Of a stretch of DNA of 37,274 nucleotides, positions 28,363 through 37,076 are shown in pieces (within the stretch, counting starts at the first letter, position 1; each line of letters begins with the position of its first letter). Origin of the DNA: Streptomyces otsuchiensis (GTDB taxonomy: Bacteria > Actinomycetota > Actinomycetes > Streptomycetales > Streptomycetaceae). The DNA lies in contig NZ_BHZI01000018.1 of the NCBI RefSeq assembly GCF_004305975.1, forward strand, positions 1 to 37,274, in the 5' to 3' direction. A program made the position numbers and the translations under genes. The notes under the pieces are model-generated. The model did not search any database. It saw nothing but the letters and a program-made list of their open reading frames with translations, and was not told where the DNA came from.

Positions 28363-30240
28363 TCAGCCGCCGGCGGGGACGGGCGGTGCGGGCGCCGGGC
28401 CGCCGGCGTCGGCCGGTGACCGGGAGTCCGGGGCGGCCCCGTCGGCGCCGCTGCTGACCCGCTCGAAGGGGCTGGCGAACGGGTAGTACGCCTGGAGGAA
28501 GGGCTGCATCACGGCGAGCTGCTGGTCGAGGTCCGCCTCGCTGGAGACCGTGTCGTTGAGGCAGAACACCGCTCGGTCGCGGGCCGCCAGCAACCGGCCG
28601 AGTCGCGCCGGGGTGTGCGGGTGCGCCATGTCGAAGTAGTTGTAGACCATGTCGCCCGGCACCGCGCGGCCGGTGAGGAACGCGTAGTAGTGGTGCAGCG
28701 AGGAGGTCACCGACAGGTCGTTGAGCTCGCGGAACCGGTTGGCCGCGGTGTCGCGGTGCCGCTCGGCGAACTCCTCCTCGATCTCCTCCAGCACGCTGCG
28801 CTGCAGGGCGTGCGGCACGTGCTTCATCTTCTGCGTGATGACGCTGCCGAATCGTTCCTCGATCACGGCGCGGTTGTTCTTGCCCGCCACCGACACCGGT
28901 ACGTCCTCGCTGGAGGGGCGGCCGAAGGGCACGTGCGCCTTGGAGAGGAAGAACTTCGACAGCCCGTTGGCGAGGAAGAAGTCCTGCGGGGTCGCCAGGC
29001 GGCCGAGGAAGACGTCGTCGTTGAGGTAGAGGAAGTGCTCGGACAGCCCCTCGATGTGGTGCAACTGGCTTTCGATGGCGTGCGAGTTGAACGTCGGGAG
29101 GACCGAGGGGTCGCGGAAGATCTCGCGGTGGCTGACGACGGTGATCCCGGGGTGGTCGGTGTCCAGCCACTCCGGCGTCTGGTCGTCGGTCACCAGGTAC
29201 ACGTGGTTGATCCACGGTGCGTACTGGGCGAGGGAGCGCAGCGAGTACCGCAGCTCGTCCCGGCTGAGGAAGCGCGCCGCGTTGGCGGCCTCCTCGTGAT
29301 AGCCCTCGCCGGAGAACTCGGCACGGCGCCGCAGCCACGCCGGGTCGGACCCGTCGACCCATGTGTACACGGCGTCCACGGGGAAGCGGATGTCGTCGGG
29401 CAGCGGGTGGGCGAACTCGGGGAGGGTGCGGACCTTGACGTCGGCCGCGGCGTCCCGGGCCAGCAGCGGGCTCACCCGGGCGAGCGGAACGGTGACGCGC
29501 TCCTCGTCGGGCGGCACCTCGTCCGTGCAGCGGTTGGGGCGGGGCGCCGTCAGCCCGCCGAGGCCGTCCGCGGGCCAGAACTCGATGTCGCAGCCGAAGC
29601 GGTCACCGATCGACGCCGTGCCGTGCTCGTCGGTGAAGTACCAGCAGAGGCGTATCACCCGTGCCTGCAGCTGACGGCGGGTGCCGGCGCCGCCGACCGG
29701 GGTGGTGCGGGGGCCCGCCCGGCGGGTCTGCTCGGCCACCAGGTAGCCGGCGGTGCGGGAGCACAGGGCGGTCAGGGCGGCCAGGGCCTCGGCCCGGCGG
29801 TCGGCGGGCACTCCCACGCAGCCGGCGGCCGGGTCGGTGCCGCGGACCACGAAGTGGTCGACGCCGGCCTGGTCCAGCGCGTCGCAGATCCACTCCGTCG
29901 CCTGGGCCTGGGCCTGGAGCGGAGAGGGGTAGGCGCGCACATGCGCTGCCTTGGGGCGCCGGTTCACCGTCACCAGACGGCGGCCCTTCGCCGCGTACAC
30001 CTGTGGGGCGCGGCGCAGCGCCAGTGCCGCCCGGCGCTCGGCGATCCGGTCGGGGACCGCCTGCGACAGGGTCAGCGAGCGCTTCACAGCCGAGCGCAGC
30101 CGCAGCGAGGATCTTCCGGCCACCGCACGCCGTGCCGCCACGGGCACCAGCTTGCGGTACAGGGCGACCAGGCTCGACGCCTCCGGGTTACGGACGGGAC
30201 CACCCGCCTGGCCACCGTCCTGCTCGGGTTGTGCGCTCAT
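28363..30240 (-). CDS. Stealth-family sugar-phosphate transferase
   Basis: 625 residues from ATG 30240, with ggaggag about 10 nt upstream; a GTG at 30276 is in frame but less likely. Stealth proteins transfer hexose-1-phosphate to make phosphodiester-linked capsule or cell-wall polymers. Conserved region 1 is FPVDAVYTWVDGSDP (286-300). Region 2 runs from RDELRYSLRSL (327-337) and VYLVTDDQTPEWL through FLYLNDDVFLG (403-413). Region 3 has AHVPFG (435-440) to LHHYYAFLTGRAVPG (515-529), and region 4 has FCLNDTVSSE (559-568). The N-terminal ~280 residues are a less conserved domain typical of long actinobacterial members. No transmembrane segment or signal is seen. It stands alone; the acceptor polymer is unknown. 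Confidence 0.92.
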   Translation of the reverse strand: MSAQPEQDGGQAGGPVRNPEASSLVALYRKLVPVAARRAVAGRSSLRLRSAVKRSLTLSQAVPDRIAERRAALALRRAPQVYAAKGRRLVTVNRRPKAAHVRAYPSPLQAQAQATEWICDALDQAGVDHFVVRGTDPAAGCVGVPADRRAEALAALTALCSRTAGYLVAEQTRRAGPRTTPVGGAGTRRQLQARVIRLCWYFTDEHGTASIGDRFGCDIEFWPADGLGGLTAPRPNRCTDEVPPDEERVTVPLARVSPLLARDAAADVKVRTLPEFAHPLPDDIRFPVDAVYTWVDGSDPAWLRRRAEFSGEGYHEEAANAARFLSRDELRYSLRSLAQYAPWINHVYLVTDDQTPEWLDTDHPGITVVSHREIFRDPSVLPTFNSHAIESQLHHIEGLSEHFLYLNDDVFLGRLATPQDFFLANGLSKFFLSKAHVPFGRPSSEDVPVSVAGKNNRAVIEERFGSVITQKMKHVPHALQRSVLEEIEEEFAERHRDTAANRFRELNDLSVTSSLHHYYAFLTGRAVPGDMVYNYFDMAHPHTPARLGRLLAARDRAVFCLNDTVSSEADLDQQLAVMQPFLQAYYPFASPFERVSSGADGAAPDSRSPADAGGPAPAPPVPAGG

Positions 30241-30576
30241 CGCACCGGTTCTCCTCCCACGGGCGCCGCCCGTCACGTACGAGGACGGCCTCGTCGGGCG
30301 GCGACTTTCGAAACGTCACCGATTTCCGTCAGTGTGCCGTACGTCACCAGGGGTTCCGGCCGTTTCGGGCACGATCCGGCCGGATGACCCGGTGCGGTAC
30401 ACATCGGCACGGTACTCCTTCCCAGCCTTTGTCAAAGGAGGCATCACCGGACTGTCGACGATCCGGTACGCAGCCGCGCCGGGCCCGGAGACGCGGAATG
30501 CCCGTTCACTCCTGAGAGTGAACGGGCATCCCTGGTCACGGGGCCGGGGCGACGCTTCGGCCCGGACGGGGGCGGG
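30241..30576. promoter_or_regulatory. intergenic region between the Stealth gene and the ABC operon
   Basis: 336 nt that should hold the Stealth promoter (minus strand), although no clear -35/-10 pair is visible. cctttgtcaaagg (30426-30438) is a perfect 13-bp palindrome around a central t. It runs into aaaggagg, a full Shine-Dalgarno-like sequence with no start codon in range. gtgacg on the minus strand occurs three times between about 30276 and 30345. The ABC operon terminator lies at 30498-30529. Confidence 0.5.
30498..30529 (-). terminator. terminator of the ABC importer operon
   Basis: atgcccgttcactc (30498-30511) and gagtgaacgggcat (30516-30529) form a perfect 14-bp stem with a ctga loop, 47 nt beyond the stop of the last permease gene on the minus strand. 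It is less GC-rich than other hairpins here but fully paired. Confidence 0.85.
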
Positions 30577-31431
30577 CTACTTCACCGCGCCGCCCATCAT
30601 CCCCGCGACGAACTGCTTCTGGAACGCGAAGAAGATCGCCAGCGGCACCAGCATCGACAGGAAGGCGCCGGGCGCCAGCACGTCGATGTTGGAGTCGAAC
30701 TGCCGCATCTGCTGCTGCAGCGCCACCGTCATCGGCGGCGAGCTGGGGTCGGCGAACACCAGCGCCACCAGCATGTCGTTCCACACCCACATGAACTGGA
30801 AGATCGCCAGCGCGGCGATGGCGGGACCGCCCAGCGGCAGCACCACCCGGGTGAAGAGCCGCAGCTCACCGGCGCCGTCCAGCCGCGCGGCCTCCAGCAG
30901 CTCCCGCGGGATCTCCGCGAAGAAGTTGCGCAGCAGGAAGATCGCGAACGGCAGACCGAACGCGGCGTGGAAGATCACCACGCCGAAGGTGGTCTCGAAC
31001 AGGCCGAGCGTGTTGAACAGACGCGCGACCGGGATCAGCGCCACCTGGATCGGCACCACCAGCAGTGCCACCACGCCGATGAACCACCAGTCCCGGCCGG
31101 GGAAGTCCAGCCACGCGAAGGCGTAGGCGGCCATCGCGCCGAGGACCAGCACCAGCAGGGTGGCGGGCACGGTGATGAGCGCGGTGGTCCACAACGAGCC
31201 GGTGATGGCGTCGTTCTGGAGGATCTCCGTGTAGTTGGCCCCGGTCAGCTGGCCGGGGTCGGTGAAGACCGTCCACCAGCCGCTGGAGGCCATGTCCCGC
31301 GGGTCGCGGAACGAGGACAGCAGCAGTCCGGCGGTGGGCATCAGCCACAGCAGGGCCAGGACGATCAGCACCGCCCGGACCAGGCCCCCGGAGGCGAACG
31401 ACGCGATGCGCGACGCGACGGAAGTCTTCAT
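30577..31431 (-). CDS. carbohydrate ABC transporter permease, MalG type
   Basis: 284 residues with six predicted transmembrane segments. The cytoplasmic EAA loop that contacts the ATPase reads EAARLDGAGELRLFTRVVLP (about 178-197). The C-terminus is the normal short form (FQKQFVAGMMGGAVK). It is the second permease of a sugar importer, last gene of the operon. Its ATG overlaps the stop of the preceding permease by 4 bp (ATGA). No ATPase gene lies nearby; Streptomyces importers commonly share the MsiK ATPase, which is the likely partner here by inference. The sugar is unknown. Confidence 0.94.
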   Translation of the reverse strand: MKTSVASRIASFASGGLVRAVLIVLALLWLMPTAGLLLSSFRDPRDMASSGWWTVFTDPGQLTGANYTEILQNDAITGSLWTTALITVPATLLVLVLGAMAAYAFAWLDFPGRDWWFIGVVALLVVPIQVALIPVARLFNTLGLFETTFGVVIFHAAFGLPFAIFLLRNFFAEIPRELLEAARLDGAGELRLFTRVVLPLGGPAIAALAIFQFMWVWNDMLVALVFADPSSPPMTVALQQQMRQFDSNIDVLAPGAFLSMLVPLAIFFAFQKQFVAGMMGGAVK

Positions 31432-32726
31432 CGCTGGGCCTCCTTACGCAGCCGGCGCACGTTGACGATCATCACCGGGATCACCAGCAGCAGCAGGAAG
31501 ATCGCGATCGCCGAGCCCAGGCCCTGGTTCGATCCGGCGCCGAAGGACACCGTGTACAGCTGGAGCGCCAGCACGTTGGCGTCGGGTTGGACCGACCCGG
31601 GCGCGATGATCAGCACCAGGTCGAAGACCTTCAGCACGTTGATCATCAACGTCACCATCACCACCCCGAGGACCGGGGCGAGCAGTGGCACGGTGATCCG
31701 GCGGAACACCTGCCACTCGTTGGCGCCGTCCACCCGGGCGGCCTCCATGATCTCCCGGGGCACACCGGCCAGTCCGGCCGCGATGAGCACCATCGCGAAG
31801 CCGGCCCACATCCACACGTAGCTGCCGATGATCGCCGGCGTCACCAGCGACGGGCCGAGCCAGTCGACACCGTTGTAGCTGGCCGCGAAGTTGGACGCGG
31901 CCAGCCGCAGCTGGGCCCCGTCCGCCTCGGCGGGCAACGAGAAGGTGCCGTCGGCCTGCGTGGTGGCGGACGCCACCACCGAGCCGTCCTGGACCGCCTG
32001 CACGGTGATCCCGGCCAGGGCCTTCTCACCGTCGTCGATCACCCCGGGCTCGCCACCACCGCCCTGGGTGAAGTCGAGCCAGACGGTGCCCGTGACCCCG
32101 TCCGAGGACGACGCGGCGGGCACCGCCTGTTCGGCGTCGGCCACGGCCGGCGGCGCCACCCGCACCAGCGGGAGCAGCACGGAGTCACCCGCGGAGACCG
32201 CCTGGTCCAGCACGATCGCGCCGTCCGGCTCCTCCGACATGCCGTCGTCGGGGCGCGGATGGGCGCCCGGCCACGGCGCGCCCTCCGAGAAGGTGTCGTG
32301 CACCGAGACCGCGACCGCGTTGGCCACGCCCCGGTCCGGGTCCGCCTCGTAGACGAGCCGGAAGATGATGCCCGCGGCCAGCATGGAGATCGCCATGGGC
32401 ATGAAAATCAACAACTTGAACGCGGTCGCCCAGCGGATCCGCTCGGTCAGGACCGCGAAGATCAAGCCGAGTCCGGTGGCGACAGCGGGCGCCACCGCGA
32501 TCCAGATGAGGTTGTTCTGCAACGCCTTTCTGATCGCCGGGTCCGTGAACAGCGACTGGTAGTTGCCGAAACCGACGAACCCGTCACCGGACGCGTCGAA
32601 GAGGCTTCGGTAGAGAGAGAAGATGATCGGATAGACCACCAGCGCGCCCAGGAGCAGCAGCGCCGGCAGCAGGAACGAGGCCACGATCCAGGGACGTCCC
32701 CGGAACATGGCTGGGCCTTTCGCCAT
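31428..32726 (-). CDS. carbohydrate ABC permease with extracytoplasmic Ig-like insert
   Basis: 432 residues, about 130-140 more than a normal MalF/UgpA-type permease. Transmembrane segments lie at about 13-36, 71-94, 103-124, 296-318, 350-375 and 405-425. The EAA loop is EAARVDGANEWQVFRRITVP (328-347). The extra segment (about 145-283) sits after VYEADPDRGVANAV and before YNGVDWLG, in an outward loop. Its second part (211-277: GTVWLDF, VIDDGEKALAGITVQAV, ATTQADGTFSLP) has the pattern of SdrD-B/CNA-B type beta-sandwich domains. ATG 32708 is an alternative start with a better gaaagg box. It overlaps the second permease gene by 4 bp. Confidence 0.93.
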   Translation of the reverse strand: MAKGPAMFRGRPWIVASFLLPALLLLGALVVYPIIFSLYRSLFDASGDGFVGFGNYQSLFTDPAIRKALQNNLIWIAVAPAVATGLGLIFAVLTERIRWATAFKLLIFMPMAISMLAAGIIFRLVYEADPDRGVANAVAVSVHDTFSEGAPWPGAHPRPDDGMSEEPDGAIVLDQAVSAGDSVLLPLVRVAPPAVADAEQAVPAASSSDGVTGTVWLDFTQGGGGEPGVIDDGEKALAGITVQAVQDGSVVASATTQADGTFSLPAEADGAQLRLAASNFAASYNGVDWLGPSLVTPAIIGSYVWMWAGFAMVLIAAGLAGVPREIMEAARVDGANEWQVFRRITVPLLAPVLGVVMVTLMINVLKVFDLVLIIAPGSVQPDANVLALQLYTVSFGAGSNQGLGSAIAIFLLLLVIPVMIVNVRRLRKEAQR

Positions 32727-32747: not shown

Positions 32748-34142
32748 TCAGTCGCCGTAGGCGGCGGCCGCCTGCGACTCCAGGTACTCCTGGACGCCCT
32801 CGATGTCCTCGGGGTCGCGCAGGAAGTCCTGCAGCGCCTGCCACATGCCCTGCCCGGTGGTGCCACCGAAGGCGGCCGGGGCCAGGTCGGACATGTCGAA
32901 GCGGAAGTCGTCACCGGCGGAGATCAGCGCCTCGGCGATCTCACGCTGCACGTCGTCCGGGTAGGCGTCGAAGCCGAGCGCCTTGTTCGGCGAGAGGAAC
33001 CCGCCCTGGCCCGCCCAGGTGGCGGCCGCGTCGGTCGAGGCCAGGAACGCCATCAGCGCCTCCTGGGCCTCGGTCGCCTCGCCGGTGTCGGGGGAGAGCG
33101 CCACGGCGACGTCGCCGCCGCTGACCACGGGGGAGTCGTCACCGACCGCCGGGAACGGGAAGACCAGCGCGTCCTCGCCCACGACGGCGTCGGTGGAGTC
33201 GCTGATCACCGAGGCGACGAAGTCGCCCTCGTAGACCATGGCGGCCGACGGGGCCTCCAGGTCGGCGAAGGTCTGGGTCACCGAGGTCGGGAAGTCGGTG
33301 CGCAGCGCGCCGGCACTGCCGCCCGCCAGCAGCCGCTCCTGGCCGAACAGCTCGCCCAGGGTGGTGAGCGCCTCGGTCACCGACTCGTCGGTCCACGGGA
33401 TCTCGTGCGCGGCCAGCTGGTCGTACAGCTCCGGGCCGGCCTGCGAGAGGTAGATGTTCTCGAACCAGTCGGTCAGGGTCCAGCCGTCGGCGCCGCCGAC
33501 GGAGACCGGGTCCACGCCCGAGTCGGAGACGGTGCCCGCGGTCGCCACGAACTCGTCCCAGGTGGTCGGCGGCTCGACACCGGCGTTGGTGAACGCGGTG
33601 TTGTTGTACCAGACCAGGGACTTGTTGGCGGCCTTGACGTACACGCCGTACTGCTCGCCCTCGTAGGCGCCGAGGTCGCGCCAGCCCGCGTCGTAGTTCT
33701 CCGCCAGCTGCTCCTCGGCCAGGGCGCCCACCGGGGCGAGCCAGCCCTTGTCGGCGAACTCGTGCACCACGCCGACCTGGGCCACGATCGCCACGTCGGG
33801 GGCCGCGCCGCCGTCGATCTTCTGGCCGATGAACGTCGACAGGTTGTCGCCGGTCGGCACGAAGCTGACCTTGGCGCCGGTCTGCTCCTCGAAGTCGGCG
33901 ATGGCCGCCATGAAGTTGGACTGCTCGGCGCCGGTCCACACCGCGGCGACCTCCAGGGTCTCGCCGCTGAGGTCCGGCAGGTCCAGCGAGGCGCCGTTGT
34001 CACCACCGCCGCCACCGCCACCGGACCCGCCGCCGCTGTCGTCGCTGCCGCATGCCGTGAGGACCAGGGCCGCGGCGGTGGCGACCGCCGCGATCTGGCC
34101 GAGATGCCGTGTCCTACGGCTGGAACGGATGGCGCTGTTCAT
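32748..34142 (-). CDS. sugar-binding lipoprotein of an ABC importer
   Basis: 464 residues. A signal peptide with lipobox LTAC (C31) is followed by a Gly/Ser/Asp linker (about 33-50) and a solute-binding domain of the extracellular family 1 type. Typical pieces are WTGAEQSNFMAAIADFEEQT (69-88), YGVYVKAANKSLVWYNNTAF (about 165-184), WDEFVATA and TWAGQGGFLSPNKA. It captures a sugar or oligosaccharide outside the membrane and delivers it to the two permeases downstream (gap 21 nt). Its length and motifs suggest an alpha-glucoside or similar substrate only weakly. No regulator or glycosidase gene is adjacent. ATG 34142 has an aagggcgg box 6 nt upstream. Confidence 0.94.
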   Translation of the reverse strand: MNSAIRSSRRTRHLGQIAAVATAAALVLTACGSDDSGGGSGGGGGGGDNGASLDLPDLSGETLEVAAVWTGAEQSNFMAAIADFEEQTGAKVSFVPTGDNLSTFIGQKIDGGAAPDVAIVAQVGVVHEFADKGWLAPVGALAEEQLAENYDAGWRDLGAYEGEQYGVYVKAANKSLVWYNNTAFTNAGVEPPTTWDEFVATAGTVSDSGVDPVSVGGADGWTLTDWFENIYLSQAGPELYDQLAAHEIPWTDESVTEALTTLGELFGQERLLAGGSAGALRTDFPTSVTQTFADLEAPSAAMVYEGDFVASVISDSTDAVVGEDALVFPFPAVGDDSPVVSGGDVAVALSPDTGEATEAQEALMAFLASTDAAATWAGQGGFLSPNKALGFDAYPDDVQREIAEALISAGDDFRFDMSDLAPAAFGGTTGQGMWQALQDFLRDPEDIEGVQEYLESQAAAAYGD

Positions 34143-34343: not shown

Positions 34344-37076
34344 TCACGCGTTGGAGGCCGCCGGAGCCGCCTCGGAACGCGCGGCGGCGGTCGCCGCGCT
34401 GGCCAGCAGGGCGATGTCCGTCGGCCCGTTGCCCAGCTCGCGCACCGGTCGGCGGGCCGGCCGGTCACCGAGCCGCGCCCAGTCCAGCGCCGCCACCGAC
34501 GGCCGCAGCGTCGCCGTGCGCGGAATGCGGCCGGTCACCCGGCCGGCCTGGAACGGTATGCCGCCTCCGGCACCGACCAGCTCGGCCCGGCCCGGCGGGA
34601 GGCCGGTGAGCCGGATCCGCAACGCTCCGGGCGCCGAGGCCGCCTCGTCGGCGGCGATCAGATGCACACCGAGCCGGCCCCCCTCCCGCACCACGGCGTC
34701 CAGCACCCGCACCACCGAACCCGCCGCAGGCCGGCCCGGCGCCCCGAGCGCCGGGGCGCGCAGCGCGGCGACGTCGTCGGCGATCACCACCAACCGCGGC
34801 AGCGGGTCCGTGCCCTCCGGCGCGCAGGGCGCCGCCGTACCCGCGCCGTGGTCCTCGCCACGGCGTGGGCCGACCACGCGCAGCGGCGCAGCCGCCGGCT
34901 CACCCGTCCAGGTCTCGAACGGTCCCTCGCCCAGCAGCGCCGCCCGGCGGTTCAGTTCGGCGCGCAGTGCCTGCGCGAAGGTCCGCATGCGCACCGGGTC
35001 GGTCGTGCGCAGCCGCTCGCTCACCTGGGGCAGCTCCGCGCACGGTGCGAGCCCCTCGTCGGGGCCGTCCACCAGGAGCAGCGAGAGCCCTCGCGGCCCC
35101 GCCGTCGCACAGAGCGAGGCCGCCAGGGAGCACAGCAGCTCGGTGCGGCCCGAGCGGGCCGGCCCCTCGACGAGCAGCGGCCCCGGCGCCGCCGCCAGAT
35201 CGGTGGCGAGCGGGCCGTCGACCGCAGAGCCCAGAACCAGCGGCAGCCCTTCGGTCGCCTCCCAGCGGGTGCGGAGCGCCGCCGGAGTGACGCGGGGCAG
35301 CCGGAGGACATCCAGCAGCCGTGCCGACTCCGGAAGCGGCTCTGCGTCGCCCCCGGTCGCCTCGCGCAGCGGCGCCAGCGCGCGGGCCAGCCGTTCCGCC
35401 CAGGCGCCGGACACCCCGTCCATGGTGGCCGGCGGACCGGCCTCGCCGTCCGGGAGCAGCAGCCTCAGCGAGGTCGCGACCTCGCCCGCCAGTACCCCGC
35501 GCATGCCGCACGCCGCGAACGCGGGCAGGGCGTGCTGGGCGGCGGTGACCGTGTCGGTGACAGGCGAGGCGGGGGTGGCGGCCGGCGCCTCGGCCAGGCA
35601 GAGCAGATGGACGCCCGCGGCCGGGCCCTCGGCCGCCAGCCGGGCCAGGTCCCCCCGGAGCCGCTCACCGGCGAGGTCACCGTCGACCAGCACGACGGTG
35701 CGCCGCTCCGGGGAACCGGGCCGCACGCTCCGCCCGTGCCCCGGCCCGCCGGGCGAGGGCAGCCGGGCGATCAGCTCGGCGACCCGCGCGGCGGCCTGTT
35801 CGTGGTCGAAGGCCAGCAGCCGGTGGCAGGGCTGCGTGGTCGGACGGGTGTGCGGCAGCCAGCCCGTCCACGCCCACTCCGTGGCGCAGCCCGGAGCGAT
35901 CGTCACCAACTCCACGGCGCTGGGCGGGTGCAGGGCCGCCAGCTGGGCCACGGCGGCGCGGGCCAGCGCTCGCAGCCGGGGGCGCGGCCCGGCCAGGCCC
36001 AGCGAACCGGCGGCCGAGAGGCCGACCGTGACCGGGACCAGCGGCCCGGCGGCGCGCTGCCCGGAGCCGAGCCGGACGGTCAGGGCGTCCCGGTGGGCCG
36101 CGTCGCGTTCCCAGAGCGGGGCGTGGGACTCGACGGCGGCCAGCAGCAGTGTCGCCGGGTCCGGCCAGCGTTCCCGGCCGGACCCGCGGGGTGCCGGTGC
36201 GCCGGCCGGGCCCCTCCCGCTGCCGGAGACCGTCGCGCCCGCCGGACTTGTCGACCGGGCGGGGTGACCCGGCTCGGCGCCGTCCGGACGGCGAAGGTTC
36301 CAGCCGGGTCGCCTGCGGGCCGGATGTCCGGTGGTCGGCTCGCTGACGAGGTCGCTCGCGCCCCCGGGAGCGGGCCGTTCCCGGCCGGTTCCCGCCCCGC
36401 CGCGCGCGGACTGGCCCGGAATGGTCGCCCCGGCCGCCTCGCCCCGGTGGGTGGGGTGGGTGCGCTCGCCCGTGCCGCCCCCGCCGGGCAGACCCCCTCC
36501 GGACACGCCGTCGTCGAGGACCACCCGGAGCACCGACTCGCCGAGACGCAGCTCGGCGCCGAGCGGCAGCGTACGGGGCCGCTCGCCGACCGGCCGGCCG
36601 TCCAGGGTGGTGCCGTTGGTGGAGCCGGAGTCGCGCACGGTCAGCGTGCCGTCGGCGGCGACGGTGACGACGCAGTGCCGGCGGGAGACGTCCGGGTCGT
36701 CGAGCGGTACCTCGGCCGTGCCCGAGCGGCCGACCCTGATCTCGCCGCCGTGCAGCAGGTGGACGCCGCCGGCGTCCGGGCCGGAGACCACCAGCAGCCG
36801 CGCCCGTGCGCCGGTGGTGGCGGCCTCCGCCGGGCGCTGGAACGCCAGCACCGCGCCGTCCAGCAGGGGAGGGGCGCCGAGGACCGTGTCCTGGGGGTCG
36901 AGCCGCTCCGGTCCGCAGAAGACGGCGGACGGCGGACCCGCGCCCGGCGTCGCGGTCTCGGCGAGCGCGGGGAGCACCGCCGTGAGGGGGGTGCCGTCGG
37001 GGGCGGTGACGGTGACGTCGGTACCGGCGTCGTGGGCTCCGCCCTGCGGTCCGAGAACGGTCAACCTGAGCTGCAT
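34344..37076 (-). CDS. FHA-domain protein with EssC/FtsK-like architecture
   Basis: 910 residues, start fixed by gggag 6 nt before ATG 37076. An N-terminal ubiquitin-like region (1-80) resembles the first domain of EssC. The FHA domain (113-187) has GRS (116-118), SRRH (131-134) and STNG (152-155), the residues that read phospho-threonine. A Gly/Pro/Arg-rich linker (about 190-300) follows. The C-terminal half has two FtsK/SpoIIIE-like modules: a degenerate one near GLAGPRPRLRALARAAVAQL and one with a P-loop GPARSGRT (637-645) whose lysine is replaced by R644. The Walker B-like strand is RLVVIADDV. It is probably a membrane-free partner in secretion or kinase signalling. No ESX genes lie within view. 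Confidence 0.85.
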   Translation of the reverse strand: MQLRLTVLGPQGGAHDAGTDVTVTAPDGTPLTAVLPALAETATPGAGPPSAVFCGPERLDPQDTVLGAPPLLDGAVLAFQRPAEAATTGARARLLVVSGPDAGGVHLLHGGEIRVGRSGTAEVPLDDPDVSRRHCVVTVAADGTLTVRDSGSTNGTTLDGRPVGERPRTLPLGAELRLGESVLRVVLDDGVSGGGLPGGGGTGERTHPTHRGEAAGATIPGQSARGGAGTGRERPAPGGASDLVSEPTTGHPARRRPGWNLRRPDGAEPGHPARSTSPAGATVSGSGRGPAGAPAPRGSGRERWPDPATLLLAAVESHAPLWERDAAHRDALTVRLGSGQRAAGPLVPVTVGLSAAGSLGLAGPRPRLRALARAAVAQLAALHPPSAVELVTIAPGCATEWAWTGWLPHTRPTTQPCHRLLAFDHEQAAARVAELIARLPSPGGPGHGRSVRPGSPERRTVVLVDGDLAGERLRGDLARLAAEGPAAGVHLLCLAEAPAATPASPVTDTVTAAQHALPAFAACGMRGVLAGEVATSLRLLLPDGEAGPPATMDGVSGAWAERLARALAPLREATGGDAEPLPESARLLDVLRLPRVTPAALRTRWEATEGLPLVLGSAVDGPLATDLAAAPGPLLVEGPARSGRTELLCSLAASLCATAGPRGLSLLLVDGPDEGLAPCAELPQVSERLRTTDPVRMRTFAQALRAELNRRAALLGEGPFETWTGEPAAAPLRVVGPRRGEDHGAGTAAPCAPEGTDPLPRLVVIADDVAALRAPALGAPGRPAAGSVVRVLDAVVREGGRLGVHLIAADEAASAPGALRIRLTGLPPGRAELVGAGGGIPFQAGRVTGRIPRTATLRPSVAALDWARLGDRPARRPVRELGNGPTDIALLASAATAAARSEAAPAASNA

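Follow-up and report, generated by a model that had tools for sequence, protein, structure and literature searches.

The maltose importer of enteric bacteria provides the closest described precedent for a sugar-importer permease with an additional domain outside the membrane. The passages of PMC2246101 dealing with MalF describe a protein of eight transmembrane (TM) segments with a 180-residue periplasmic domain (P2) between TM3 and TM4, whose function was unknown at that time. Titles cited in PMC3150292 indicate that P2 contacts the binding protein MalE, and the part of PMC8134467 concerned with this domain has it moving as a rigid body around MalE. A large hydrophilic region in the maltose permease MalG of Thermotogales is described as a lineage mark (in those same passages of PMC2246101), in another subunit than the one considered here and likened to it by description only. 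Here we report on a 37,274-nucleotide stretch of Streptomyces otsuchiensis (positions 1-37,274 of contig NZ_BHZI01000018.1, assembly GCF_004305975.1; hereafter, the window), in which the first permease of a putative sugar importer carries a large insert. An extra extracytoplasmic permease domain is known already from MalF P2; the variant here is an SdrD_B-like module after the third helix of an AglF-like protein. Our analysis points to an agl-type F permease whose insert was gained probably once and most likely docks the substrate-binding lipoprotein (SBP), a reading to which, as a whole, we give about even chances. The features of the permease are as follows.

31428..32726 (-): first permease, AglF-like, 432 residues, six predicted TM segments
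31866..32294 (-): insert between TM3 and TM4, approximately residues 145-287 (from loop counts; folded in two models)
32109..32264 (-): N-terminal beta part of the insert, residues 155-206, with strands 163-165, 171-176 and 182-188 (two structure models)
31872..32108 (-): C-terminal SdrD_B/CarboxypepD_reg-like half, residues 207-285 (profile and predicted fold)
32025..32075 (-): conserved acids D218, D231 and E234, aligning with acids in an SdrD B repeat loop (alignment to SdrD)

The hydrophobic segments of the permease span residues 11-43, 72-95, 99-126, 297-323, 340-379 and 397-427 (by hydropathy, overlapping stretches merged). An earlier note on this DNA had placed an extra extracytoplasmic segment at 31878-32294 (-), and these coordinates do correspond to residues 145-283 of the open reading frame 31428-32726 (-), between the third and fourth of six TM segments. 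The EAA-type coupling motif (EAARVDGA, residues 328-335), whose core residues are invariant across 41 aligned rows, comes after the fourth segment, between TM4 and TM5; given the usual permease topology, this TM/EAA order would put the insert on the outer face of the membrane. A survey of homologous permeases, counted between window residues 126 and 305, produced two length classes: 179-188 residues in 172 of 201 rows and 42-49 in the other 29, with no intermediate or truncated length among them, so that the insert amounts to about 135 residues over the loop of insert-free relatives. Since these rows (the window included, some genes possibly counted twice through overlapping loci) were collected by two routes, insert profiles and a query lacking the insert, the proportion 172:29 is no frequency and only the length gap is informative. 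Four positions of the insert (D218, G260, F280 and G286) are the same in all 172 insert-bearing rows; D231 is found in 162 of them (E in nine) and E234 in 171. The mean identity to the window protein over 29 aligned relatives is 73.6% for TM1-3, 40.1% for the first half of the insert, 62.5% for its second half and 80.5% for TM4-6; over 15 selected distant insert-bearing rows the corresponding values are 57.5%, 30.7%, 46.1% and 67.1%. The insert is thus not a chance sequence but a real and well conserved one. The note had placed such a domain outside the standard architecture; the insert is common to a large family of actinobacterial permeases, and MalF had already provided an example of an additional domain outside the membrane.

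As to its nature, the insert is predicted to be a composite beta domain made of a short N-terminal beta part and an SdrD_B-like domain. The surface-protein pattern that the earlier note had read in its second half (VWLDF, DDGEKALAGITVQAV, DGTFSLP) is present as written, and both family profiles and the predicted fold support a domain of SdrD_B/CarboxypepD_reg type there, although for the window protein the Pfam matches fall below the cut-offs (CarboxypepD_reg 23.6 bits against 32.3, SdrD_B 17.6 against 29.7; 25.5 and 19.8 bits, likewise below, for the insert alone) and the domain is missed by them. At E-values (E) up to 0.1, CarboxypepD_reg matches 40 of 41 inserts of the family (best 1.2e-10) and SdrD_B 31 of 41 (best 1.3e-10), while the family profile (A5) aligns with SdrD 10ps at E 4.4e-12 over the whole chain and 2.1e-5 for the best single stretch. 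The insert modelled alone is folded (predicted local distance difference test score, pLDDT, 89.9; predicted template-modelling score, pTM, 0.85), and it is also folded in the model of the full-length permease, which speaks against a disordered segment. The profile matches are to a family of Ig-like type, if under the Pfam cut-offs for this one protein, and the earlier reading thus escapes both of the refutations that its author had named. Residues 145-210, which had been taken for a Pro/Ala/Glu-rich stalk, are indeed rich in Pro, Ala, Glu and Gly (mean 0.50 over 41 rows). Nevertheless, both models fold this stretch, with the strands listed above and block pLDDT of 89-95 (full length) and 91-96 (insert alone), and on this prediction the stalk reading is rejected. 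Among the seven best fold matches of the insert only 4zjg and 4zjh begin well within the N-terminal beta part. The resemblance of residues 207-285 to SdrD B and CarboxypepD_reg domains lies in profile, predicted fold and the conserved acids of the first loop, whereas the single domain here sits within a membrane permease, has an added N-terminal beta part and, as compared to SdrD B, a Gly-rich loop extended by some five residues (an alignment gap). SdrD B repeats bind calcium. Elsewhere in the same genome SdrD_B gave a single weak match, under the cut-off.

Like MalF P2 (E. coli MalFGK2), the insert adds a large domain outside the membrane to a CUT1 importer's F permease. The position is different: P2 would follow helix 1 of the six-TM core (as judged from aligned ranges, model residue 8 aligning to MalF 57), and the insert follows the third. 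Identity of the two was considered and rejected as the loop differs; P2 was also absent from the fold matches of the insert-alone model, which is no proof that the two are unlike. SugA of the mycobacterial trehalose importer LpqY-SugABC, with a chain of 305-307 residues, has no such insert. The agl-like operons of Sinorhizobium meliloti pSymB and Rhodovulum (SBP-F-G-GH13-UgpC) share the SBP-F-G order of the window, but their F permeases are insert-free (45 and 42 residues in the loop). Instead, their AglG-like permeases (L193 5803-6945 and L194 5825-6979, both on the plus strand) have a TM1-TM2 insert of their own of some 90-100 residues by anchor counts (131 and 139 residues from anchor to anchor, the G permease of the window having 39). 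This G insert matched no Pfam family, and the S. meliloti one used as a query retrieved 18 plasmid records, all from alpha-proteobacterial genera. A reciprocal rule, by which the insert would occur in either F or G, was discarded: a partner G was found for 20 of the 29 insert-free rows, and 18 of these have 39-45 residues at this place, only the two alpha-proteobacterial ones (131 and 139) having a G insert. No description of the AglF insert was met in the titles or abstract openings of the literature searched, most subscription journals lying outside that search.

The genes adjacent to the permease (listed below) help to define the importer.

30577..31431 (-): second permease, AglG-like, 284 residues, no insert (PF00528, 58.4 bits)
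32748..34142 (-): SBP, AglE-like, 464 residues, lipobox-like LTAC by eye (PF01547, 92.4 bits)
28363-30276 (-): Stealth-family protein, CR1 to CR4 by Pfam, directly downstream of the importer operon
34344-37076 (-): protein with FHA and FtsK/SpoIIIE domains (Pfam), upstream of the SBP gene

The operon runs SBP-F-G, all on the minus strand, and holds both the partner permease and the binding lipoprotein, as in CUT1 importers. The first permease scores 66.3 bits with BPD_transp_1 (cut-off 26.4), and the solved permeases nearest to it by sequence are SugA, AlgM1 and MalF. These sequence features mark it as an F permease belonging to a type I (CUT1) sugar importer. No ATPase gene was called beside the operon within the window, and the MalK-type candidates of the same genome are on other contigs (best 57%). 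Streptomyces importers usually share one ATPase, MsiK, and for this reason the missing ATPase gene is no argument against CUT1 membership. The importer is probably of the agl, alpha-glucoside, type, as suggested by the identity to the S. meliloti pSymB operon (SBP, F, G, alpha-glucosidase, UgpC), which is 33% over 401 residues for the SBP, 41-44% for the two halves of F and 42% over 251 residues for G. The named aglEFGAK operon we take to be chromosomal, and the pSymB operon is not claimed to be the same. Beside a second insert-bearing permease, 59-62% identical and present in many same-genus genomes, a GH13 gene and an SBP are found in one locus (L142, by Pfam); two more (L144 and L148) appear similar on visual inspection, and a relative on a plasmid of S. 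anthocyanicus (L192) likewise has a GH13 gene by annotation. In other families, a MalK-type ATPase gene precedes SBP and F (L149 by Pfam; L151, L158 and L161 by eye). No GH13 gene was seen adjoining the window operon (the genes checked being those for the Stealth and FHA/FtsK proteins), and a second, GH13-linked copy in the window genome was discarded as the search of that genome gave a single permease with the insert. In the parts of the literature that bear on such genes, S. coelicolor SCO2979/2980 are named aglFG, a presumed alpha-glucoside permease by in-silico assignment (PMC7581861), and Actinoplanes aglEFG are expressed less on glucose than on maltose (PMC6828939), neither being tied to the window by sequence. 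With respect to the surroundings, the Stealth-family protein is presumed to be a sugar-phosphate transferase. Kinase-like genes also lie near the operon in three other loci (L103, L123 and L141), one of them (L103 916-2259) checked by Pfam, and a prfB-like gene, judged by eye, occurs in the same three neighbourhoods.

The surveys covered 36 same-genus genomes, 394 genomes of the class, 396 of the phylum and 2301 plasmid records, other phyla being covered through these plasmid records. The whole permease as a query matched over nearly its full length in 35 of the 36 same-genus genomes, and its closest named relatives among the 80 loci kept are those of S. bohaiensis (89%) and S. lonarensis (88%). 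The only same-genus exception (G008, best E 3.4e-19) is either a true loss or a gap in a 740-contig assembly. With the insert profile, 87 of the class genomes matched, 69 of them at E below 1e-30 and all of these in frames of at least 439 residues; the other 18 were weak (E 2.3e-10 to 6.2e-4). In the phylum 76 genomes matched, 25 at E up to 1.5e-18, and these 25 include 13 from outside the class (one with merely a 112-residue frame). The class and phylum lists hold matching genomes only, and same-genus misses are not countable from them. Among the plasmid records, 11 (all from Streptomyces or Nonomuraea) match across 80% or more of the permease; 19 more rows among the matches listed, mostly alpha-proteobacterial, align in two pieces that leave out the insert and amount to 55-61% coverage. 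Both forms are present together in three genomes (G105, loci L154/L204; G171, L205; G201, L201), the insert-free AglF relative having a loop count of 45 in each.

When the insert is set aside and a maximum-likelihood tree is built from the TM core, a single branch (support 100/99; recovered in all of 200 bootstrap trees) separates 40 insert-bearing rows, selected from the 172, from all 29 insert-free ones. As the tree is midpoint-rooted and long-branch joining with one row (L233) was flagged as possible, it does not separate gain from loss. On the other hand, the insert-free F permeases of S. meliloti and Rhodovulum and the short chain of SugA favor a gain. We infer that the ancestral actinobacterial AglF would have acquired the composite beta domain, probably once, in the outer loop that joins TM3 to TM4.

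The domain would stand at the outer side of the pore and, by analogy with P2 of MalF, most likely holds or positions the lipid-anchored SBP over it. There is one computed hint of this. Distances of the insert and the SBP remain correlated after accounting for the core, the second permease and the neighbor gene (partial r 0.46 for the first and 0.44 for the second insert half, with none of 300 permutations as high), while the values are 0.23 and 0.17 with the second permease and 0.00 with the neighboring FHA/FtsK-like gene (74 of 136 loci, those also holding the neighbor gene, a gene possibly entered twice). The TM core, however, shows a similar link to the SBP distances (0.51), so that the correlation speaks equally for contact and for a common history of the operon genes. 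The single split on the tree, the faster evolution of the insert as compared to the TM core and the occurrence of insert-free relatives in many genomes would also suit a domain that has no part in transport, a passenger or stabilizer that was taken up once and has stayed since the loop folds around it. This we regard as doubtful in view of the lack of intermediate or truncated lengths and of the four positions conserved throughout the insert-bearing rows.

Another explanation refers to the family of the domain, which is frequent in wall-anchored surface proteins (SdrD and UafA are among the matches). The insert might bind peptidoglycan, a wall polymer or a surface glycan and so fix the importer in the wall. 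In line with this, 16 of the 19 weak class rows of the insert profile are in frames of 1114-2689 residues, and the Stealth gene and glycosyltransferase-like genes (by eye) lie near the operon; we nevertheless hold such an anchor to be unlikely. Least probable appears a gate or capture device, the insert itself binding an oligosaccharide at the pore mouth. Docking of the SBP thus stays our preferred interpretation. In a tentative extension, extracytoplasmic SBP clamps may have arisen independently in CUT1 importers, each time by insertion of a beta domain into another outer loop (for MalF P2 the one behind helix 1 of F, for the alpha-proteobacterial AglG-like permeases that behind helix 1 of G, for actinobacterial AglF that behind helix 3 of F). 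The AglF clamp would then be a domesticated SdrD_B-like module of surface proteins, perhaps stiffened by calcium, that retains the lipoprotein at the importer in cells whose envelope lacks an outer membrane.

Overall, a module of the surface-adhesin type appears to have become part of a membrane transporter and to have been retained across the genus (35 of 36 genomes) and in other actinobacterial families. If docking is true, AglF relatives with and without the insert in one phylum, including the three genomes that have both, would offer an experiment set up by nature on the reason for which certain importers grip their binding protein at a second place.
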